Origin: Bacteroides faecalis | Lineage (GTDB): Bacteria > Bacteroidota > Bacteroidia > Bacteroidales > Bacteroidaceae | DNA: 64,000 bases | Direction of reading: 5' to 3' | Assembly (NCBI RefSeq): GCF_003865075.1 | Contig: NZ_BHWB01000007.1 | Span: 186,001 to 250,000 of the forward strand | Shown: in pieces, positions 992 through 56,534 of the stretch | How the letters are laid out: every line of letters begins with the position of its first letter | How positions within the stretch are numbered: the first letter of the stretch is position 1 | The notes under the pieces: model-generated | Databases searched by the model: none | Seen by the model: the letters and a program-made list of their open reading frames with translations, nothing else | Told to the model about the DNA's origin: nothing | Program-made: the position numbers and the translations under genes

Positions 992-3900
992 ATGCAGGAT
1001 TTCGTTCATTTACACGTCCATACGCAATATTCTCTTTTGGATGGTCAAGCTAGCGTAGCTCGCCTGGTTGATAAAGCCATGCAAAATGGAATGAAAGGTA
1101 TTGCCGTGACCGATCATGGGAATATGTTCGGTATCAAGGAATTTACGAACTACGTCAATAAGAAAAACAGTGGTCCGAAAGGAGAAATCAAGGATCTGAA
1201 AAAGAAAATTGCAGGAATTGAAGCAGGTACGGTAGAGTGTGAGGACAAAGAAGCGGAGATTGCTGCTTGCAAAGCTAAAATAGTAGAGGCGGAGAATAAG
1301 ATTTTCAAGCCGATAATCGGTTGTGAGATGTATGTGGCACGCCGCACAATGGAACTGAAAGAAGGTAAACCCGATCAAAGTGGCTATCACTTGATTGTGT
1401 TAGCCAAGAATGAGAAAGGTTATCATAACCTTATTAAATTAGTATCGCACGCGTGGACACGTGGATACTATATGCGTCCACGTACCGACCGTAGTGAGTT
1501 GGAAAAGTATCACGAAGGGTTGATTGTATGCTCGGCTTGTTTGGGTGGAGAGATACCCAAACGGATTACTAATGATCAGTTTGCTGAAGCAGAAGAAGCC
1601 ATCCAATGGTATAAGAATCTGTTCGGCGATGATTTTTATCTGGAGATGCAGCGGCATCAGGCAACGGTTCCTCGTGCTAATCACGAATGTTACCCGTTAC
1701 AGGTAAAAGTAAACAAGTACTTGCAGGAATATGCACAGAAGTTCAACATAAAGTTGATCTGTACCAACGATGTCCATTTTGTTGATGAAGAAAATGCCGA
1801 AGCACATGACCGATTGATCTGTTTGAGTACAGGTAAGGATTTGGATGATCCGTCCCGTATGCTATATACCAAACAGGAGTGGATGAAAACCCGTGAGGAA
1901 ATGAATGAACTCTTTGCGGATGTACCCGAAGCTTTGAGCAATACGTTAGAGATTTTGGACAAGGTGGAGATCTATTCTATTGACCATGCTCCTATTATGC
2001 CTACTTTTGCCATTCCTGAAGAATTCGGAACAGAAGAAGAATATCGGAAGAAATTTACGGAAAAAGATCTTTTTGATGAATTCACTCAGGATGAACATGG
2101 TAATGTAGTCTTGAGCGAGGAAGATGCAATAGCAAAAATCAAGCGTCTAGGGGGATATGATAAATTGTACCGTATCAAACTGGAAGGCGATTATCTGGCC
2201 AAGTTGGCTTTTGACGGAGCCAAAAAAATATATGGTGAACCTCTATCGGATGAGGTTAAGGAACGTATGAATTTTGAGTTGTACATCATGAAGACGATGG
2301 GTTTCCCGGGATACTTCTTGATTGTGCAAGACTTTATCAATGCTGCCCGTAAGGAATTGGGGGTATCGGTAGGACCGGGACGTGGTTCGGCTGCCGGCTC
2401 GGCTGTTGCATACTGTCTGGGGATTACAAAGATCGACCCTATCCAGTATGATTTGCTGTTTGAGCGTTTTTTGAATCCGGACCGTATCTCATTGCCTGAT
2501 ATTGATGTCGATTTCGATGATGATGGTCGTGGTGAGGTACTTCGTTGGGTGACTAATAAGTATGGTCAGGAGAAAGTAGCCCACATCATTACTTATGGTA
2601 CGATGGCAACCAAGCTGGCAATCAAAGATGTTGCGCGTGTGCAGAAGTTACCTCTTTCCGAATCTGATCGTTTGGCAAAGCTGGTCCCGGATAAAATCCC
2701 CGATAAGAAACTGAATTTACGGAATGCTATTGAATATGTTCCGGAATTACAAGCTGCTGAGGCATCTTCCGATCCTCTGGTAAGGGATACGATTAAGTAT
2801 GCTAAAATGCTTGAAGGAAACGTTCGCGGTACAGGCGTACATGCTTGTGGTACAATTATTTGTCGTGATGATATCACCGATTGGGTACCTGTAAGTACGG
2901 CGGACGATAAGGAAACGGGAGAGAAAATGCTCGTTACTCAATATGAAGGTTCAGTCATTGAGGATACGGGATTGATAAAGATGGACTTTCTCGGATTGAA
3001 GACTCTTTCTATTATAAAGGAGGCAGTCGAAAACATCCGTTTGAGTCGTAACCTGGAGATTGATGTAGACCAGATAGATATTACAGATCCTGCTACTTAT
3101 AAGCTATATAGTGATGGACGTACCATTGGTACTTTCCAGTTTGAATCTGCCGGTATGCAAAAATACCTGCGTGAGTTGCAGCCCTCTACTTTTGAGGACT
3201 TGATTGCCATGAATGCTCTCTATCGTCCCGGACCGATGGATTATATTCCTGACTTTATCGATCGTAAACATGGTCGTAAGCCGATCGAATATGATATTCC
3301 GGTGATGGAGAAGTACTTGAAAGATACGTATGGTATTACTGTATATCAAGAACAGGTGATGCTTTTGTCACGTTTGTTGGCTGACTTCACCCGTGGCGAA
3401 TCGGATGCGCTTCGTAAGGCGATGGGTAAGAAGCTGCGTGATAAACTGGATCACATGAAACCAAAGTTTATCGAAGGCGGTCGAAAGAACGGTCACGACC
3501 CGAAGGTGCTTGAGAAGATCTGGACCGACTGGGAGAAATTTGCTTCTTACGCTTTCAATAAATCACATGCTACTTGTTATTCGTGGGTTGCTTATCAAAC
3601 TGCTTATCTGAAAGCAAACTTCCCACCGGAATATATGGCGGCTGTGATGAGCCGAAGTTTGTCGAATATTACCGATATCACCAAGTTGATGGACGAATGT
3701 AAGGCAATGGGGATTCAGACACTGGGACCGGATGTGAATGAGAGTAACCTTAAGTTTACGGTAAACCATGATGGTAATATCCGTTTCGGATTGGGAGCAG
3801 TGAAAGGCGTAGGTGAAGCTGCCGTACAAAGTATAATGGAGGAACGCGAGAAGAACGGGCCTTTTACAGGTATCTTTGATTTTGTGCAACGTGTCAATCT

Positions 3901-4798
3901 GAATGCTTGTAACAAGAAAAATATGGAATGCCTGGCACTTGCCGGAGGTTTTGACAGTTTTCCGGAGTTAAAACGTGAACAGTATTTTGCTGTTAATTCA
4001 AAGGGTGAAGTGTTCCTGGAAACATTAATGCGCTATGGTAACCGTTATCAGGCGGATAAATCAGCAGCTGTCAATTCTCTTTTTGGCGGTGAAAATGTGA
4101 TTGATGTGGCTACTCCTGAAATCCCTCAAGATGTGGAGCGTTGGAGTGATCTGGATCGTTTGAATCGTGAGCGTGATTTGGTTGGTATTTACCTTTCGGC
4201 TCATCCCTTGGATGAATTTTCTATTGTTTTGGAACATGTTTGTAATACACGCATGGCCGAGTTGGATAATAAAGCGGATTTAGCAAGGCGTGAGATAACA
4301 ATGGGAGGTATTGTAACCAGTGTGCGAAGAGGTGTTAGTAAAAACGGCAATCCGTATGGAATTGCTAAGATTGAAGATTATTCCGGTTCTGCCGAACTGC
4401 CATTCTGGGGAAATGATTGGGTGACTTATCAGGGATATCTGAATGAAGGAACGTTCCTGTATATCAAAGCTCGTTGCCAGCCTAAGCAATGGCGACAGGA
4501 TGAATTAGAGATAAAAATAACCTCAATGGAACTGTTGCCGGACGTAAAAGAAGAGTTGATACAGAAAATCACTATATTGATTCCTTTATCAATACTCAAC
4601 TCGGGATTAGTAACAGAATTGGCTACATTAACAAAGGAGCATCCCGGTAAAACGGAACTTTATTTTAAAGTAACGGATGATTCTGATGCCAATCGTATGT
4701 CGGTTGATTTAATCTCTCGTCCTATAAAACTTTCGGTCGGTAGAGATTTAATAACTTATTTAAAAGAGCGTCCTGAACTAGCTTTCCGTATAAATTGA
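992..4798 (+). CDS. dnaE: DNA polymerase III alpha subunit
   Basis: Main replicative polymerase subunit, 1268 aa. An N-terminal PHP domain starts with HLHVHTQYSLLDG. The PHP domain holds a charged, coiled-coil-like insertion at about residues 57-110 (Lys/Glu/Ala rich) before FKPIIGCEMYV; from memory, Bacteroidetes DnaE proteins carry such an insert. The polymerase core contains the PGRGSAAGS block near residue 460 and the catalytic DIDVDFDDDGR near residue 505. The little-finger and helix-hairpin-helix region follows, then a C-terminal OB-fold region (NGNPYGIAKIEDYSG) near residue 1120. The start fits the promoter 54 bp upstream. trxA follows after 62 bp with its own -7 element overlapping the dnaE stop. 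Confidence 0.97.
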   Translation: MQDFVHLHVHTQYSLLDGQASVARLVDKAMQNGMKGIAVTDHGNMFGIKEFTNYVNKKNSGPKGEIKDLKKKIAGIEAGTVECEDKEAEIAACKAKIVEAENKIFKPIIGCEMYVARRTMELKEGKPDQSGYHLIVLAKNEKGYHNLIKLVSHAWTRGYYMRPRTDRSELEKYHEGLIVCSACLGGEIPKRITNDQFAEAEEAIQWYKNLFGDDFYLEMQRHQATVPRANHECYPLQVKVNKYLQEYAQKFNIKLICTNDVHFVDEENAEAHDRLICLSTGKDLDDPSRMLYTKQEWMKTREEMNELFADVPEALSNTLEILDKVEIYSIDHAPIMPTFAIPEEFGTEEEYRKKFTEKDLFDEFTQDEHGNVVLSEEDAIAKIKRLGGYDKLYRIKLEGDYLAKLAFDGAKKIYGEPLSDEVKERMNFELYIMKTMGFPGYFLIVQDFINAARKELGVSVGPGRGSAAGSAVAYCLGITKIDPIQYDLLFERFLNPDRISLPDIDVDFDDDGRGEVLRWVTNKYGQEKVAHIITYGTMATKLAIKDVARVQKLPLSESDRLAKLVPDKIPDKKLNLRNAIEYVPELQAAEASSDPLVRDTIKYAKMLEGNVRGTGVHACGTIICRDDITDWVPVSTADDKETGEKMLVTQYEGSVIEDTGLIKMDFLGLKTLSIIKEAVENIRLSRNLEIDVDQIDITDPATYKLYSDGRTIGTFQFESAGMQKYLRELQPSTFEDLIAMNALYRPGPMDYIPDFIDRKHGRKPIEYDIPVMEKYLKDTYGITVYQEQVMLLSRLLADFTRGESDALRKAMGKKLRDKLDHMKPKFIEGGRKNGHDPKVLEKIWTDWEKFASYAFNKSHATCYSWVAYQTAYLKANFPPEYMAAVMSRSLSNITDITKLMDECKAMGIQTLGPDVNESNLKFTVNHDGNIRFGLGAVKGVGEAAVQSIMEEREKNGPFTGIFDFVQRVNLNACNKKNMECLALAGGFDSFPELKREQYFAVNSKGEVFLETLMRYGNRYQADKSAAVNSLFGGENVIDVATPEIPQDVERWSDLDRLNRERDLVGIYLSAHPLDEFSIVLEHVCNTRMAELDNKADLARREITMGGIVTSVRRGVSKNGNPYGIAKIEDYSGSAELPFWGNDWVTYQGYLNEGTFLYIKARCQPKQWRQDELEIKITSMELLPDVKEELIQKITILIPLSILNSGLVTELATLTKEHPGKTELYFKVTDDSDANRMSVDLISRPIKLSVGRDLITYLKERPELAFRIN

Positions 4799-4799
4799 C

Positions 4800-4807
4800 T
4801 ATATTTG
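4800..4807 (+). promoter_or_regulatory. -7 element of trxA
   Basis: TATATTTG begins 2 nt after the last base of the dnaE stop codon and matches TAnnTTTG. No clear TTG sits 19-21 bp upstream. It would give trxA a leader of about 45 nt. Confidence 0.5.
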
Positions 4808-4860
4808 TAGCGGAAATCAATTAGGAATCATTTATAATTAACACTTAATATTTAAATAAA

Positions 4861-5175
4861 ATGGCTTTAGAAATTACAGATAGCAACTATAAAGAGCTTA
4901 TTGCAGAAGGTAAGCCGGTTGTGGTAGATTTTTGGGCTCCTTGGTGTGGCCCTTGTAAAATGGTAGCTCCTATCATAGAGGAATTGGCAATCGAATTTGA
5001 AGGACAGGTACTCATCGGTAAATGTGATGTAGATGAAAATAGTGATGTGGCTGCTGAATACGGTATCCGTAACATCCCGACTGTTCTGTTTTTTAAGAAT
5101 GGAGAAGTTGTTGATAAGCAGGTAGGTGCTGTCGGCAAACCGGTATTTGTGGAGAAAGTGAAGAAACTTTTGTAA
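4861..5175 (+). CDS. trxA: Thioredoxin
   Basis: Cytoplasmic thiol-disulfide reductase of 104 aa, the standard single-domain length, with no signal peptide. The active site WCGPC has Cys29 and Cys32. FWAPWCGPCK, the cis-proline in RNIPTVLFF and GAVGKPVFVEKV at the end are all typical. It probably serves general redox balance (ribonucleotide reductase and others). Lies between dnaE and a small acidic protein and may be co-transcribed with the latter, which starts 50 bp downstream without an obvious promoter of its own. Confidence 0.96.
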   Translation: MALEITDSNYKELIAEGKPVVVDFWAPWCGPCKMVAPIIEELAIEFEGQVLIGKCDVDENSDVAAEYGIRNIPTVLFFKNGEVVDKQVGAVGKPVFVEKVKKLL

Positions 5176-18614: not shown

Positions 18615-18897
18615 ATATAATATTAGTATTTTATACTATTTAACTAATAACTATTAGCTAAAAAGCAGTATATGTAAGCATAATACGCAAATAAACCAAG
18701 AAAAATTGTAATTACAGCAAGATATTCGCTAACTCAAAGACTAACAATAGCAAATTAACCGAAGCGTGAGAATAAGTTTTTAAAGCCCCAACAATATATT
18801 AAATGACTGAAAAAGATTCATCTTATATGTCACACAGGGGGTACGTCCTGATTCAGGTATGATCTACTTTATCTCTAGGGAGTATAAAGCCATTATT

Positions 18898-19012
18898 TAT
18901 TGTCACTTGTCACTTTTCGGAATTAAGTCTCAGATAATCAATGGTAAAGTGGTGATAATAGATAGGTGACAATAGAGTGACAATAGAGATTTATAACATT
19001 TCTATTGTCACT
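18898..19012. repeat. GTGACAATAG repeats, direct and inverted
   Basis: Two direct copies of GTGACAATAGA (about 18966-18987). The second copy forms a perfect 12-bp inverted repeat with TCTATTGTCACT (19001-19012; arm 18976-18987, 13-nt spacer). Further TTGTCACTTGTCAC copies lie at about 18898-18914. The pattern resembles protein-binding iterons; the binding protein is unknown. Confidence 0.6.
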
Positions 19013-19176
19013 TTCATTTAACTATCTATCCACATAACACACTGATTTCCAGATATTACACATACTATTTTGAGAGTAGAAGGATTAGGGCATCTTACCC
19101 CTATTTCATTCGTTTTTTTAGAAAACCATAGTCTGTAATCATTGCATTAGTTGTTTTTTAGAGAGTTAATAGATTT

Positions 19177-19349: not shown

Positions 19350-19452
19350 GTACACTATTTGTTTGTTTCAGATAAAGTATCCGTTTTCTCGTTTCTTGTA
19401 TGTCAGCCATTTACTCCCCAATATACCATAAACTTAGTTCCTTCTTCTATTT

Positions 19453-19638
19453 CATTAATAAATAGATTGTTGTTCATTAATAGAAAACTTGCTCCCTACT
19501 AATAGATAACTTGTTCTCTATTAAGTGATAACTTTCTTTTCCTTTATACAAAACTATAACCGCAAGCTCCGGTTATATAACTGAAACTTTTGATTATATA
19601 ATCAAAGGCTTCGGTTTCATAATCAGAACTTGCGGCTA
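19453..19638. repeat. Intergenic repeat array with 22- and 21-bp periods
   Basis: Four consecutive 22-bp units start at 19453, 19475, 19497 and 19519, each opening with a YAYTAA core (CATTAATA, CATTAATA, TACTAATA, TATTAAGT) followed by an AACTTG-like half. After 14 bp come four 21-bp units starting at 19555, 19576, 19597 and 19618, each opening with YATAA and carrying a middle CTTG/GGTT-like half. Units are similar but not identical; there are no unique spacers. Confidence 0.7.
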
Positions 19639-19888
19639 TAGCTTCTTTCCTACAAAAACACATTTTAGCTCTTGAAAGAACAAGTTTCCTTCCGATTAAA
19701 AGGAATTTATGCAGTACAAACTTACTGAAAAATATCGGTTTATAAGCGTTATTTCATAAAAGAATAGTTTTATAAATCCTTGTTTACACATATAATCAAG
19801 CTCCCAGTGGAAAATCTACAAAGAGATTGTGACCTCTTTTGTTAAAGAATACTTTCCTTCACTGCTAGTTTATTTGAAACGTTATACT

Positions 19889-32442: not shown

Positions 32443-32600
32443 TTGTTTTTTCTTTAAACATCAGTTAAGCTATTTTAAATAGAACAGAAAATCTACTCTA
32501 CACATAAAGATGAAAAAGTTTTTTTTCCGTCACTCATCACACTCCTATACATAAATAGCTGAATGAAAGCACTTAATAGCGTGATGATAAGGTGTGACGA

Positions 32601-32629
32601 CAGGTGATGGAAACAATTTCCATCACCTG
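32601..32629. repeat. 13-bp perfect hairpin
   Basis: CAGGTGATGGAAA (32601-32613) and TTTCCATCACCTG (32617-32629) are perfect inverted copies with a 3-nt loop. Partial GTGATGA/TCATCAC motifs lie in the 90 bp to its left. An A-run follows on the plus strand. It lies 22 bp before a 22-bp repeat array. Possible protein site or structured RNA element. Confidence 0.65.
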
Positions 32630-32650: not shown

Positions 32651-32783
32651 TTGAAACCGGTAGATTCATCCTTTGGAACCAAAAGTTTCATACAAGTGAA
32701 ACTAAAGGTTTCAAAGCGTGGAACTAAAAGTTTCAAGGCTTGAAACCAATAGTTTCACCGCTTGAAACCGGTAGTTTATACGC
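32651..32783. repeat. Intergenic 22-bp repeat array, GAAAC type
   Basis: Six units start at 32651, 32673, 32696, 32718, 32740 and 32762; all are 22 bp except the second (23). Each has the form TTGRAACY, four variable bases, AGTTTCA-like, then a variable tail of about five bases. Each unit is quasi-palindromic (GAAAC facing GTTTC). A partial seventh unit (TCGAAAACAGG) follows. No identical repeats and no spacers. No gene overlaps it. Confidence 0.75.
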
Positions 32784-32974
32784 TCGAAAACAGGAACAGA
32801 TATATACCATACGTTTATTGTCTCTTTACCTTGATTTCTTTGACATAATAGAACAGCTTTTATTCGTATAAAAAGACCCGCATTATTGAATAAAAGATCC
32901 ATAATACCTCCAAACCAAAGACAATCGATAAACACTTTAAAGAAAATACTAACGAATAGGAAAGGACTAAAAAC

Positions 32975-33236
32975 AAAAAAAGAGCGAATAATTCCGCCCC
33001 ACCTTTAAAGAATCCCCCATAAATGGGATTCTTTTTTTCTGCATCTTCACTTTACTTGTTACCTGAAAAACTACTCTTTTACTCAAAATACCTAATAAAA
33101 ACTACCTTGCTACCTAAAAACTAATCTTAAATCTAATCCTTAATTTTATAAACTAATACTTAATACCTTTTTCACCTTTTCTAATACCTAAAAATTCTTT
33201 AAACTAAAACTAAACTATAGAGTAGTTTCACAACTA
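32975..33236 (-). ncRNA. Candidate small RNA, about 260 nt
   Basis: A full-consensus minus-strand promoter (33242-33271) has no ORF downstream. The predicted RNA runs through AU-rich GGTATTAG-like repeats (about 33080-33200), then a strong hairpin (AAGAATCCC 33008-33016 with GGGATTCTT 33025-33033). It ends in a short hairpin GCGGA-ATTA-TTCGC (32984-32997) followed by TCTTTTTTT (32975-32983), a minus-strand terminator. No convincing coding frame. It could be a Bacteroides regulatory RNA or a 6S-like RNA; the identity is not established. Confidence 0.55.
33008..33038. terminator. Hairpin with T-run inside the candidate RNA
   Basis: 9-bp stem AAGAATCCC/GGGATTCTT with an 8-nt loop; on the plus strand it is followed by TTTTT. 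No plus-strand gene precedes it. On the minus strand it would be an internal hairpin of the candidate RNA. Confidence 0.6.
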
Positions 33237-33241
33237 CGCTG

Positions 33242-33271
33242 CAAAGTTACGTCGGATTTGGAAAAATGCAA
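33242..33271 (-). promoter_or_regulatory. Consensus promoter of the candidate small RNA
   Basis: Minus strand TAACTTTG (33242-33249) with TTG (33269-33271) exactly 19 bp upstream. Divergent from mnmG. Confidence 0.65.
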
Positions 33272-46824: not shown

Positions 46825-48366
46825 ATGAGCGAACAATTCGAAATTATTGCCAAGACTTTCCAAGGATTGGAAGAGATACTTGCAGAAGAACTGACAACAT
46901 TAGGAGCCAACGACATTCAGATAGGACGCCGCATGGTTTCATTTACAGGAGATAAGCGTATGATGTACAAAGCAAATTTCTGCCTTCGTACTGCCATTCG
47001 CATCCTGAAACCAATTAAACATTTTACCGCCAAAGATGCCGATGAGGTTTACAGTCAGATTCAAGAAATTCCTTGGGAAGAGTATCTGGACACTGACAAA
47101 ACATTTGCTATAGATGCGGTAGTATTTAGTGAAGAGTTCCGCCATTCGAAGTTCGTTTCATACAAAGTAAAAGATGCCATCGTAGATTATTTTCGTGATA
47201 AAACCGGGAAACGTCCGTCAGTACGCATAAATAATCCGGATATTTTATTGAATATACATATTGCACAGACTACTTGTACGTTGTCATTAGACTCTTCAGG
47301 TGAGTCTCTTCATCGTCGTGGATATCGCCAGGAAGCGGTAGAAGCTCCATTGAATGAAGTATTGGCAGCAGGCATGATCCTGATGACCGGATGGCGTGGA
47401 GAATGTGACTTGATCGATCCGATGTGTGGTTCGGGTACAATTCCTATCGAAGCAGCGCTCATTGCTCGAAACATTGCCCCAGGAGTCTTCCGCAAAGGAT
47501 TTGCATTCGAGAAGTGGGTGGATTTTGATGCGGATATGTTCGACGAGATCTATAATGATGATAGTCAAGAACGTGAATTTGAACATAAGATTTATGGTTA
47601 TGACAATAACCCGAAAGCTAATGAGATTGCAACTCACAATATAAAAGCTGCCGGTGTATTCAAAGACGTAGTATTGAAACTGCAACCATTCCAGCAATTC
47701 GAGCAACCGAAAGAGAAATCAATTATCATAACGAACCCTCCTTATGGTGAACGTATCTCTACGAATGACTTGCTCGGATTGTATCAGATGATTGGTGAAC
47801 GTCTGAAACATGCTTTCGTTGGAAATGAGGCGTGGGTACTCTCCTACCGCGAAGAATGCTTCGACCAGATAGGTTTGAAAGCAAGTGAAAAGGTTCCATT
47901 GTTCAATGGTCCACTGGAGTGTGAGTTCCGGAAATATGAAATCTTTGATGGAAAATACAAAGAATTCAAGAGTCAGGAAACAGAAGAAGGTGGAGAAGAT
48001 AAAAACGAGGGAGAAGAAGGTTTTACTCCAAAAATCAAAGAGAGAAAAGATTTCAGACCTCGCAGAGAAGGGGAATTTAAGCCACGTAGAGACGAAGAAT
48101 CCAGACCGAGACGAGAAGGTGAGTTCAAGCCACGTAAAGATGGAGAATATAAACCAAGACGGGATGGTGAGTTCAAGCCACGCAGAAATGGTGAATCCAG
48201 ACCAAGACGAGAAGGAGAGTTTAAACCGCGCAGAGATGGCGAATCCAGAGAGGAAGGAAGAGATAGAAAGCCACGCGGAGAATTCCATGAAAGAAGAGAT
48301 TCGAAAGCACCGAGAGAGTTCAGAGGTAACCGGGAGCCTAGAATTCCTAAAAAGGATGAAGAATAG
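46825..48366 (+). CDS. THUMP-domain RNA methyltransferase (RlmL-like) with Arg-rich repeat tail
   Basis: 513 aa. THUMP RNA-binding domain (residues about 50-160), then a SAM-dependent methyltransferase domain with LIDPMCGSGTIPIEAAL and the catalytic NPPYGERIS, matching the N-terminal half of RlmL-type enzymes that make m2G in 23S rRNA. After about residue 385 the chain turns into a low-complexity charged tail that includes eight 8-aa repeats of the form RR(E/D)GE(F/S)KP (residues 413-476), probably RNA-binding and disordered. 16 bp after cysE. The substrate position is inferred from family only. Confidence 0.9.
   Translation: MSEQFEIIAKTFQGLEEILAEELTTLGANDIQIGRRMVSFTGDKRMMYKANFCLRTAIRILKPIKHFTAKDADEVYSQIQEIPWEEYLDTDKTFAIDAVVFSEEFRHSKFVSYKVKDAIVDYFRDKTGKRPSVRINNPDILLNIHIAQTTCTLSLDSSGESLHRRGYRQEAVEAPLNEVLAAGMILMTGWRGECDLIDPMCGSGTIPIEAALIARNIAPGVFRKGFAFEKWVDFDADMFDEIYNDDSQEREFEHKIYGYDNNPKANEIATHNIKAAGVFKDVVLKLQPFQQFEQPKEKSIIITNPPYGERISTNDLLGLYQMIGERLKHAFVGNEAWVLSYREECFDQIGLKASEKVPLFNGPLECEFRKYEIFDGKYKEFKSQETEEGGEDKNEGEEGFTPKIKERKDFRPRREGEFKPRRDEESRPRREGEFKPRKDGEYKPRRDGEFKPRRNGESRPRREGEFKPRRDGESREEGRDRKPRGEFHERRDSKAPREFRGNREPRIPKKDEE
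48061..48252 (+). repeat. Eight in-frame 24-bp coding repeats
   Basis: Eight consecutive 24-bp units (48061, 48085, 48109, 48133, 48157, 48181, 48205, 48229) each encode one RRxGExKP-type octapeptide. Pairs of units alternate between EFKP and ESRP, suggesting duplication of a 48-bp double unit. Confidence 0.85.
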
Positions 48367-56424: not shown

Positions 56425-56534
56425 CATTAATCTGCAACTTATCAGGTATTAATACCCAATTTCCCACCTATTAATACTTGTCACTTCAGCCATTAATACC
56501 TGTCACGTAGACTATTAATAGCCCACAAACTAGG
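56425..56534. repeat. Intergenic 22-bp repeat array, YATTAATA type
   Basis: Five exact 22-bp steps starting at 56425, 56447, 56469, 56491 and 56513, each opening with CATTAAT or TATTAATA. The remaining 14 bases vary, with TGTCAC shared by two units. No identical units. Same core and period as the first half of the array at 19453. Confidence 0.75.

Follow-up and report, generated by a model that had tools for sequence, protein, structure and literature searches.

The window analyzed here, a 64,000-nucleotide stretch of Bacteroides faecalis DNA, carries a 22-bp tandem array that has a minus-strand unit on either side and lies 308 bp upstream of an ECF sigma factor gene, an arrangement that is not a clean 3'-end case. 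On one side of the array lies the ECF sigma/FecR operon (Pfam). On the other side, upstream of mnmG, is a minus-strand stretch resembling a transcription unit (32975-33249), the letters of which show terminator-like hairpins around 32976-33035 and a TAnnTTTG box, the Bacteroides -7 box, at ~33242-33249. This stretch is conserved in six relatives (G001, G009, G012, G021, G030 and G034, by DNA match or by eye; G labels denote genomes, with G000 the genome that holds the window, and L labels denote loci or contig stretches that were fetched), produced no Rfam match above the gathering threshold, and is likely to be a small RNA or a leader. The location of the array between a signalling operon and a candidate small RNA, as described in the first-pass annotation, is borne out by these two neighbors. 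The window contains three arrays of this period:

32651-32789, no strand assigned: 22-bp array of six TGAAAC-N5-GTTTCA units and a decayed seventh (TRF, unit search and reading of the letters)
19451-19534, no strand assigned: sister array with a CTATTAATAG-type core and a 22-bp period (TRF and matches in the genome)
56440-56525, no strand assigned: sister array with a TATTAATA core and 22-bp spacing (TRF and matches in the genome)

TRF delineated the first of these at 32651-32789, with a period of 22, 6.3 copies, 72% matches and a score of 87. The 15-bp cores begin at 32653, 32675, 32698, 32720, 32742 and 32764, so that the spacing between consecutive units is 22, 23, 22, 22 and 22 bp; each unit fits GAAAC-N5-GTTTC with 0-1 mismatches over the ten arm bases, and the decayed seventh unit, "CGAAAACAGG", follows the six. 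The six-unit palindromic GAAAC/GTTTC array that had been recognized from the letters is confirmed by these results, and so is the claim that it shares its period with the other two arrays of the window and differs from them in the core, theirs being TATTAATA-like. Those two arrays also have dispersed relatives elsewhere in G000. A 48-bp tandem repeat is found in the window as well, at 48065-48249 (3.9 copies, 80% matches, TRF score 223). The array part of the window locus was matched in G000 only, among 61 genomes, in a DNA search that misses arrays with another core. In the sister species G030, a ybeY gene (Pfam YbeY) occupies this locus and the array is absent; in G001, there is a gene closely related to the ECF sigma gene, with a CACGTACGTG array on its far side.

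The window array belongs to a dispersed family. Its DNA matches 16 other places in G000 with E<=2.3e-4 (the self-search gave 39 rows in all, including both strands and chance tails, and two pairs of places are identical copies), and about seventeen arrays in this genome, the window array among them, have the GAAAC-N5-GTTTC core. The pattern GAAACN4AGTTTC gave 69 matches, compared to 10 for the reversed control. The list of arrays used in the neighbor, linker, unit and flank analyses consists of the fetched matches to this core; these arrays encompass 3 to 9 units each, separated by linkers of 7 nt (51) or 8 nt (18), and over 37 arrays the unit spacing is 22 bp in 138 cases, 23 bp in 29 and 44 bp once. 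A CRISPR array, in which unique spacers of ~26-72 nt separate near-identical repeats accompanied by cas genes, was rejected on the linker length of 7-8 nt, and parS sites were rejected because the orientation is opposite to that of the parS motif and the cores vary.

The period extends well beyond this core. We scanned for self-matches at each lag from 10 to 60, with low-complexity self-matches dropped, in 400 kb each of G000, G044 and G030, all of the same genus, and found that lag 22 was the commonest in intergenic DNA (13, 14 and 15 matches, respectively), followed by lag 44 (6, 5 and 6) and, in G044, lag 21 (5). In the coding DNA of the same samples, lag 22 gave 0, 0 and 0 matches, and in 200 kb of E. 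coli K-12, with 22 kb of intergenic DNA, there was no intergenic self-match at any lag. When the intergenic DNA of the three genomes was resampled with a first-order Markov model (5 replicates each), 2 matches were obtained at lags 10-60 and none at lag 22; hence, arrays of the window type are unlikely to arise by chance. The cores seen at lag 22 include GAAACN5GTTTC, TATTAATA, GCCGACTNTAGTCGGC, CTCATAGNNATGAG, GGGAAAATATTCCC, CACGTACGTG and GTTTATTATAAAC. The dispersed matches and the lag-22 excess in three genomes together support the earlier suggestion that these elements form a family in which the core differs and the period does not. Beyond the genus, in samples that are uneven and include several short contigs, the lag-22 signal weakens and does not always dominate. 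For 20 genomes from other families of the order, the sampled stretches gave 3 matches at lag 22 in 34 kb of intergenic DNA, compared to 4 at lag 10; around mnmG in other Bacteroidales-like genomes, the top lag is 22, with 5 matches in 34 kb, and 5 more fall in stretches called coding; in other orders of the class, there was 1 match in 24 kb compared to 6 at lag 14; and none was found in 3.5 kb from other classes or in 31 kb of Flavobacteria/Cytophagia loci.

The flanks of the GAAAC arrays carry other dispersed sequences in common, which we assigned to three partner families, R1 (GGTGATAG), R2 (GTGATGG/CCATCAC) and R3 (GTGACAATAG/CTATTGTCAC), with matches spanning ~110-165 bp. By eye, all three consist of 7-10-mers ~11 bp apart that face inverted copies (the R2 copies are 11-12 bp apart). 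The partner elements and related repeats that were mapped are:

32499-32626, minus strand: R2 partner hairpin with GTGATGG/CCATCAC repeats, the array being upstream in R2 polarity (66% match to L040)
18874-19014, plus strand: R3 partner hairpin (GTGACAATAG/CTATTGTCAC), with the array at 19451-19534 downstream, as in R3 matches near arrays
19580-19732, no strand assigned: second dispersed repeat, tail-like, after the array at 19451-19534 (78% to G000 C1:167697-168282)
L033 5156-5305, L046 551-667, L038 4530-4674 and L040 5268-5398: R2 copies
L036 4672-4836, L047 4433-4592 and G000 C1:72557-72704: R3 copies

The element at the window array should take in the adjacent hairpin DNA at 32499-32626, which has a perfect 13-bp inverted repeat (32601-32629) at its edge and was not picked up directly by the L033 R2 query at 1e-4. 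The partners are polar. The array lies upstream of R1 in 10 of 11 matches and upstream of R2 in 7 of 9, and it lies downstream of R3, whatever the array core, in 10 of 11; the remaining matches (one of R1, two of R2, both in L045, and one of R3) have no array within 700 bp. The polarity is therefore constant in 27/27 matches with an array within this distance, with 4 of the 31 matches lacking one, in counts that include orthologues and a duplicated block. In L047, the order is R3 - array - R1. Furthermore, another dispersed repeat was present in 8 of the 10 intergenic segments of 300-600 bp with an array vs 5 of 35 without, in 11/13 vs 7/20 of those of 600-3000 bp, and in 0/4 vs 13/94 of those of 120-300 bp (duplicated segments counted; matches of >=94% identity or <50 bp dropped). 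In the unbiased contig-1 sample, the respective values for the same three size classes were 4/6 vs 3/25, 5/7 vs 6/13 and 0/2 vs 9/67.

As a class, the arrays are associated with gene 3' ends. Among 44 intergenic arrays in 1.2 Mb, the flanking genes are convergent for 16, co-directional for 23 and divergent for 5, whereas 18%, 59% and 23%, respectively, would be expected from intergenic bases (genes were called by ORF length, without a gene finder, and three of 47 arrays that overlap called ORFs were excluded from the orientation and dyad counts). Deduplication, which removed three arrays located in G000 duplications and five orthologues from G030, left 36 arrays (12 convergent, 19 co-directional, 5 divergent), for which the convergent excess is significant (p=0.024) and the divergent deficit is not (p=0.14). 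Co-directional arrays are closer to the upstream stop in 17 of 19 deduplicated cases (p=0.0007), such that 29 of the 36 are 3'-associated. This bias and the polar partner hairpins are additions to the picture of the array family drawn in the first-pass annotation. The duplicated blocks in G000 recur at an 81,041-base offset (C1 ~231-244 kb, 312-325 kb and further) and carry identical arrays; they may represent a true duplication or an assembly artefact, given that the assembly (5.77 Mb, 53 contigs) has 6.29% contamination.

The genes next to the arrays belong to unrelated Pfam families (amidohydrolase, Met_synt_B12, enolase, tRNA_Me_trans, QueC/QueF and others), and an ECF sigma gene is the first or second neighbor of at least 4 of 15 arrays (the window, L034, L046 and L047; second neighbors partly scanned). 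Within L040 1-5500 (G000 C2), and also in the near-identical L039 (C17), an rRNA operon has both a GAAAC array and a TATTAATA array upstream. In L040, the 16S gene (2147-3672, minus strand) starts ~1.2 kb from the GAAAC array (4901-4982) and runs away from it, again not a clean 3'-end case. Terminator-like hairpins show no clear relation to the arrays. At 38 gene ends facing an array, such a hairpin is located before the array in 6 cases, after it in 9 and in neither position in 23, so that 32 of the 38 have no intrinsic-terminator-like hairpin ahead of the array; such a hairpin marks no more than 26 of the 121 gene ends sampled, and a missing terminator therefore says little.

Dyad symmetry is significant in about half of the arrays, namely, 23 of 44 with all cores at p<0.05 and 18 at p<0.01, with no significant dyad in the other 21, in a count that keeps duplicates and orthologues. 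Among the consensus units of the window arrays, it was detected in two of three (p=0.030 and 0.020; p=0.47 for the third). Over 204 distinct units, the arms contain 1.3-1.9 bits per base and the linkers mostly <0.2, the arm information being inflated by the choice of units with an arm score >=8/10. The array of the window also folds well as RNA, with z values of -6.7 for the plus and -4.9 for the minus strand against shuffled sequences, and the arrays gave nothing above the gathering threshold in Rfam. The inner pair 5/9 covaries (z +3.5) and the pair 6/8 anti-covaries (z -5.5), whereas the arms display almost no paired changes, a shortfall that is not significant (p=0.14 at both 1/13 and 0/14); one unit carries a C-G pair at 1/13. 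The TATTAATA core is a loop-less palindrome, which fits a dimer site better than an RNA hairpin.

The lineage distribution of the cores is patchy. The double GAAAC unit was found in 19 of 60 genomes of the genus, with 0 control matches, and in one of 149 genomes across the order, which is G000 itself; only two of the 149 belong to the genus. Pairs of TATTAATA are present in 6 of 13 selected genomes, and their occurrence does not depend on GAAAC, as illustrated by G053, with 13 such pairs and no double GAAAC unit, and by G042, with 29+29 GAAAC matches and no TATTAATA pair. The region upstream of mnmG contains an array with four GAAAC-like units in B. ihuae (L054) and, seen by eye, GTTAAC units with a 22-bp period in B. 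fragilis (L052), the species with the best named mnmG relative (86%), by which G000 was taken for a Bacteroides. In the B. fragilis genome, there are 12 GTTAAC-N16-GTTAAC sites compared to 0 controls, one of them upstream of mnmG; the genome of L054 has 6 vs 1 control, and that of L053 has none. By these matches, the array cores are lineage-specific. Also upstream of mnmG, in an uncultured Mediterranea (L057, ~4740-4872), 11-bp direct repeats change to their inverted form halfway through, resembling a 22-bp array whose half-units had been ordered into a single long hairpin.

The comparison of G000 with its sister species G030, where aligned blocks are mostly 90-96% identical, reveals rapid turnover of the units. 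Of 14 arrays tried, 9 had both flanks in the sample and five lacked one or both; at these nine orthologous GAAAC loci, the unit counts in G000/G030, obtained with a lenient unit score, were 8/9, 7/7, 4/3, 6/6, 7/10, 3/9, 7/7, 4/5 and 8/7, unequal at six. Changes in unit number with the period kept, which had been proposed as a check in related strains, are therefore seen here between sister species. Anchored lengths at four of these loci differ by +22, -24, -22 and +66 bp, and a 22-bp difference in anchored length makes L038 a seventh locus that varies. Local duplication does occur, as attested by the L041 orthologue, which has an additional 66 bp of near-identical units; its postulated role as the main process, by which each array would evolve in concert, is not supported. 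Within G000, two units from one array resemble each other barely more than two from different arrays (0.472 vs 0.444 for inner bases and 0.317 vs 0.283 for linkers), and in some arrays a unit together with its linkers has been replaced by another sequence type, with the neighboring units untouched. Where units were not replaced, the arms change more slowly than the rest, with 3 changes in 184 arm positions vs 18 in 225 others (p=0.003) in five hand-chosen segments of three orthologous array pairs. Across six pairs that include replaced units, the values are 21/457 for arms, 35/190 for inner bases, 32/172 for linkers and 9/82 for array edges. At one site, a 176-bp indel that adjoins a retained GAAAC array contains a TATTAATA array present in G000 and absent in G030, with no clear target duplication.

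We tentatively favor, at somewhat less than even confidence, the explanation that the array is the minisatellite module of a BrickBuilt-like leader-array-tail repeat, with units that would be cooperative, putative sites for a dimeric DNA-binding protein and with a boundary role. The composite repeat to which the array would contribute the minisatellite is non-coding, polar and dispersed, was possibly mobile in the past, and joins the array in a fixed order to hairpin elements, sometimes on both sides (leader - array - tail). Each unit would be a palindromic site recognized by a sequence-specific dimeric protein, and the spacing of 22-23 bp, about two helical turns with 11 bp per half-site, would allow adjacent dimers to bind cooperatively. 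Bound arrays, located mostly after genes or between convergent genes, would then most likely act on the DNA as transcription-unit boundaries, in the form of a roadblock or insulator, or of a nucleoid anchor, while the units turn over through duplication, loss and exchange and the arms are kept. Recognition of DNA by dimers about two turns apart is suggested by the arm information, the variable linkers of fixed length, the dyads, the slow change of the arms and the loop-less palindromes; for the boundary role, the evidence is the position of the arrays. Homogenization between arrays might also keep the arms alike.

This last possibility is central to a quite different explanation, namely, that the array is a selfish or neutral minisatellite or MITE, a composite that spreads and whose units expand and homogenize by recombination, with no host function and with arms alike as the donors are alike. 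We consider this a realistic possibility, if on the doubtful side. It would account for the dispersed copies with common flanking modules, the fast change in unit number and content, the absence of the TATTAATA array from G030 within the 176-bp indel and the patchy spread among species (19/60 genomes of the genus). It fits less well with arms spared by point mutation where units are not replaced, with 22/23-bp spacing under unrelated cores, with the 3'-end bias and with the array-bearing filled/empty site that lacks a clear target duplication. The 3'-end bias would also be expected if the arrays acted at the RNA level, transcribed as 3' UTRs in which hairpins protect or terminate the transcript. 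The strong folding, the covariation of pair 5/9 and the 32 of 38 gene ends without a terminator-like hairpin before the array agree with such a function, although the last point carries little weight when such hairpins mark only 26 of 121 gene ends. The anti-covariation of pair 6/8, the near absence of compensatory changes in the arms (not significant), cores such as TATTAATA and CACGTACGTG that leave no proper loop, and an exact 22-bp period that RNA hairpins do not need all argue against it. With covariation at 5/9, anti-covariation at 6/8, few arm changes and good folding on both strands, an RNA role retains some probability and appears unlikely.

Palindromic, operator-like sites with an ECF sigma neighbor at no fewer than 4 of 15 arrays might also be taken for the operators of an ordinary regulon, governed, for example, by the neighboring ECF sigma factor or by a different regulator. 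In Bacteroides, such ECF genes are numerous. Most arrays follow genes rather than occupying promoters, and the Pfam families of their neighbors are unrelated, so that this explanation strikes us as very improbable. Even less credible, bordering on negligible, is mobilization as REP/BIME elements by a RAYT (Y1 transposase): the arrays do share with REP elements short extragenic palindromes near gene ends, but they consist of multiple units at a fixed period, and Y1_Tnp was not matched in 5 of 7 genomes bearing GAAAC arrays (absent in G000, G001, G021, G030 and G042, present in G012 and G044), on which grounds this origin was rejected.

A wider version of the boundary explanation, which we put forward as speculative and rather unlikely, is that Bacteroides chromosomes hold a large gene-end boundary system made of many sets of 22-bp-spaced palindromes, each with its own core and putative dimeric protein, together with polar hairpins of 11-bp repeats. 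Period and position would persist as the core is swapped from species to species (GAAAC-N5-GTTTC, TATTAATA, GTTAAC and others), a pattern reminiscent of an arms race or of a rapidly rewired chromosome-organizing code. If true, the intergenic DNA of Bacteroides would be organized by a common array class, amounting, by extrapolation from 13-15 lag-22 matches per 400 kb, to very roughly 170-200 arrays per genome. It would offer a handle on how adjacent genes are insulated in a phylum whose promoters are unusual, and a natural example of a change in DNA-binding specificity under a fixed architecture. The fast variation of the arrays between close species could make them typing markers.

Several known systems resemble these arrays in part. 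REP/BIME elements of enterobacteria are clustered extragenic palindromes, often found between convergent genes, and the arrays are likewise extragenic, palindromic, clustered and often between convergent genes, but differ in the fixed 22-bp tandem period, the several unrelated cores and the lack of Y1_Tnp in 5/7 genomes. Plasmid iterons are tandem sites of ~20-22 bp for cooperative protein binding, a similar length; unlike iterons, the arrays are dispersed over the chromosome, and most have no replication gene among the scanned neighbors (a VapE-like/BT4734-like protein is encoded near the array in L045). Paired GAAAC-N5-GTTTC sites were also detected in 20 viral contig stretches, among which letters were inspected in five, ORFs in three and Pfam matches in two. 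In L262, L266 and L270, there are two such sites 22-23 bp apart, and in L266 and L270 the pair is located between divergent HTH_3 genes, in the manner of repressor operators, which these pairs probably are. Not all viral pairs are operators because, in L281, the repeats are inside an ORF and have a 20-base period. The arrays share with the L266/L270 pairs the 15-bp palindrome and the spacing, but contain 3-9 sites and have no HTH_3 gene among the scanned neighbors. The search for an array-binding protein found none: no homologue of the viral HTH_3 protein turned up in G000 at E<=1e-3, and weak homologues of the L266 protein occur in nine of the other ten genomes searched, both with and without GAAAC arrays.

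Among the matches listed in the literature searches, which covered sources other than subscription journals and preprints, titles and abstract openings did not describe such arrays in Bacteroides, and the term "tandem repeat" does not occur in the main text of the transcriptome papers on B. thetaiotaomicron that were searched. The PM2 promoter motif of B. thetaiotaomicron is near-palindromic, according to the relevant passages of PMC7366714; we also drew on parts of PMC5771137 and PMC10994844. The closest known kind is BrickBuilt of Porphyromonas gingivalis, which, in the sections of PMC4596501 that describe it, consists of imperfect 23-nt tandem repeats in 19 dispersed intergenic copies in one strain, flanked by a leader and a tail, with unit numbers that differ between strains. 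By the test used here, its published consensus is dyad-symmetric (p=0.004; PMC4596501). Like BrickBuilt as described there, the arrays are tandem imperfect repeats of 22-23 nt, intergenic and dispersed in many copies; they are joined by leader- and tail-type sequences in a fixed order (27/27 polarity), and their unit number varies at conserved loci, here between sister species rather than strains. In contrast to that description, there are several interchangeable partner hairpins rather than one pair, with some arrays having none, several cores per genome rather than one repeat consensus, and a 3'-end bias, the word "convergent" being absent from the PMC4596501 text. Elements of the BrickBuilt type would also be expected to have IS-like terminal inverted repeats with target duplications; the array-bearing 176-bp indel shows no clear target duplication. 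Because the BrickBuilt unit, given there as AGAYCATARTATCCTCTCRTRTG, is by eye unrelated to the units of the arrays, we regard the arrays as similar in kind to BrickBuilt rather than as members of it.
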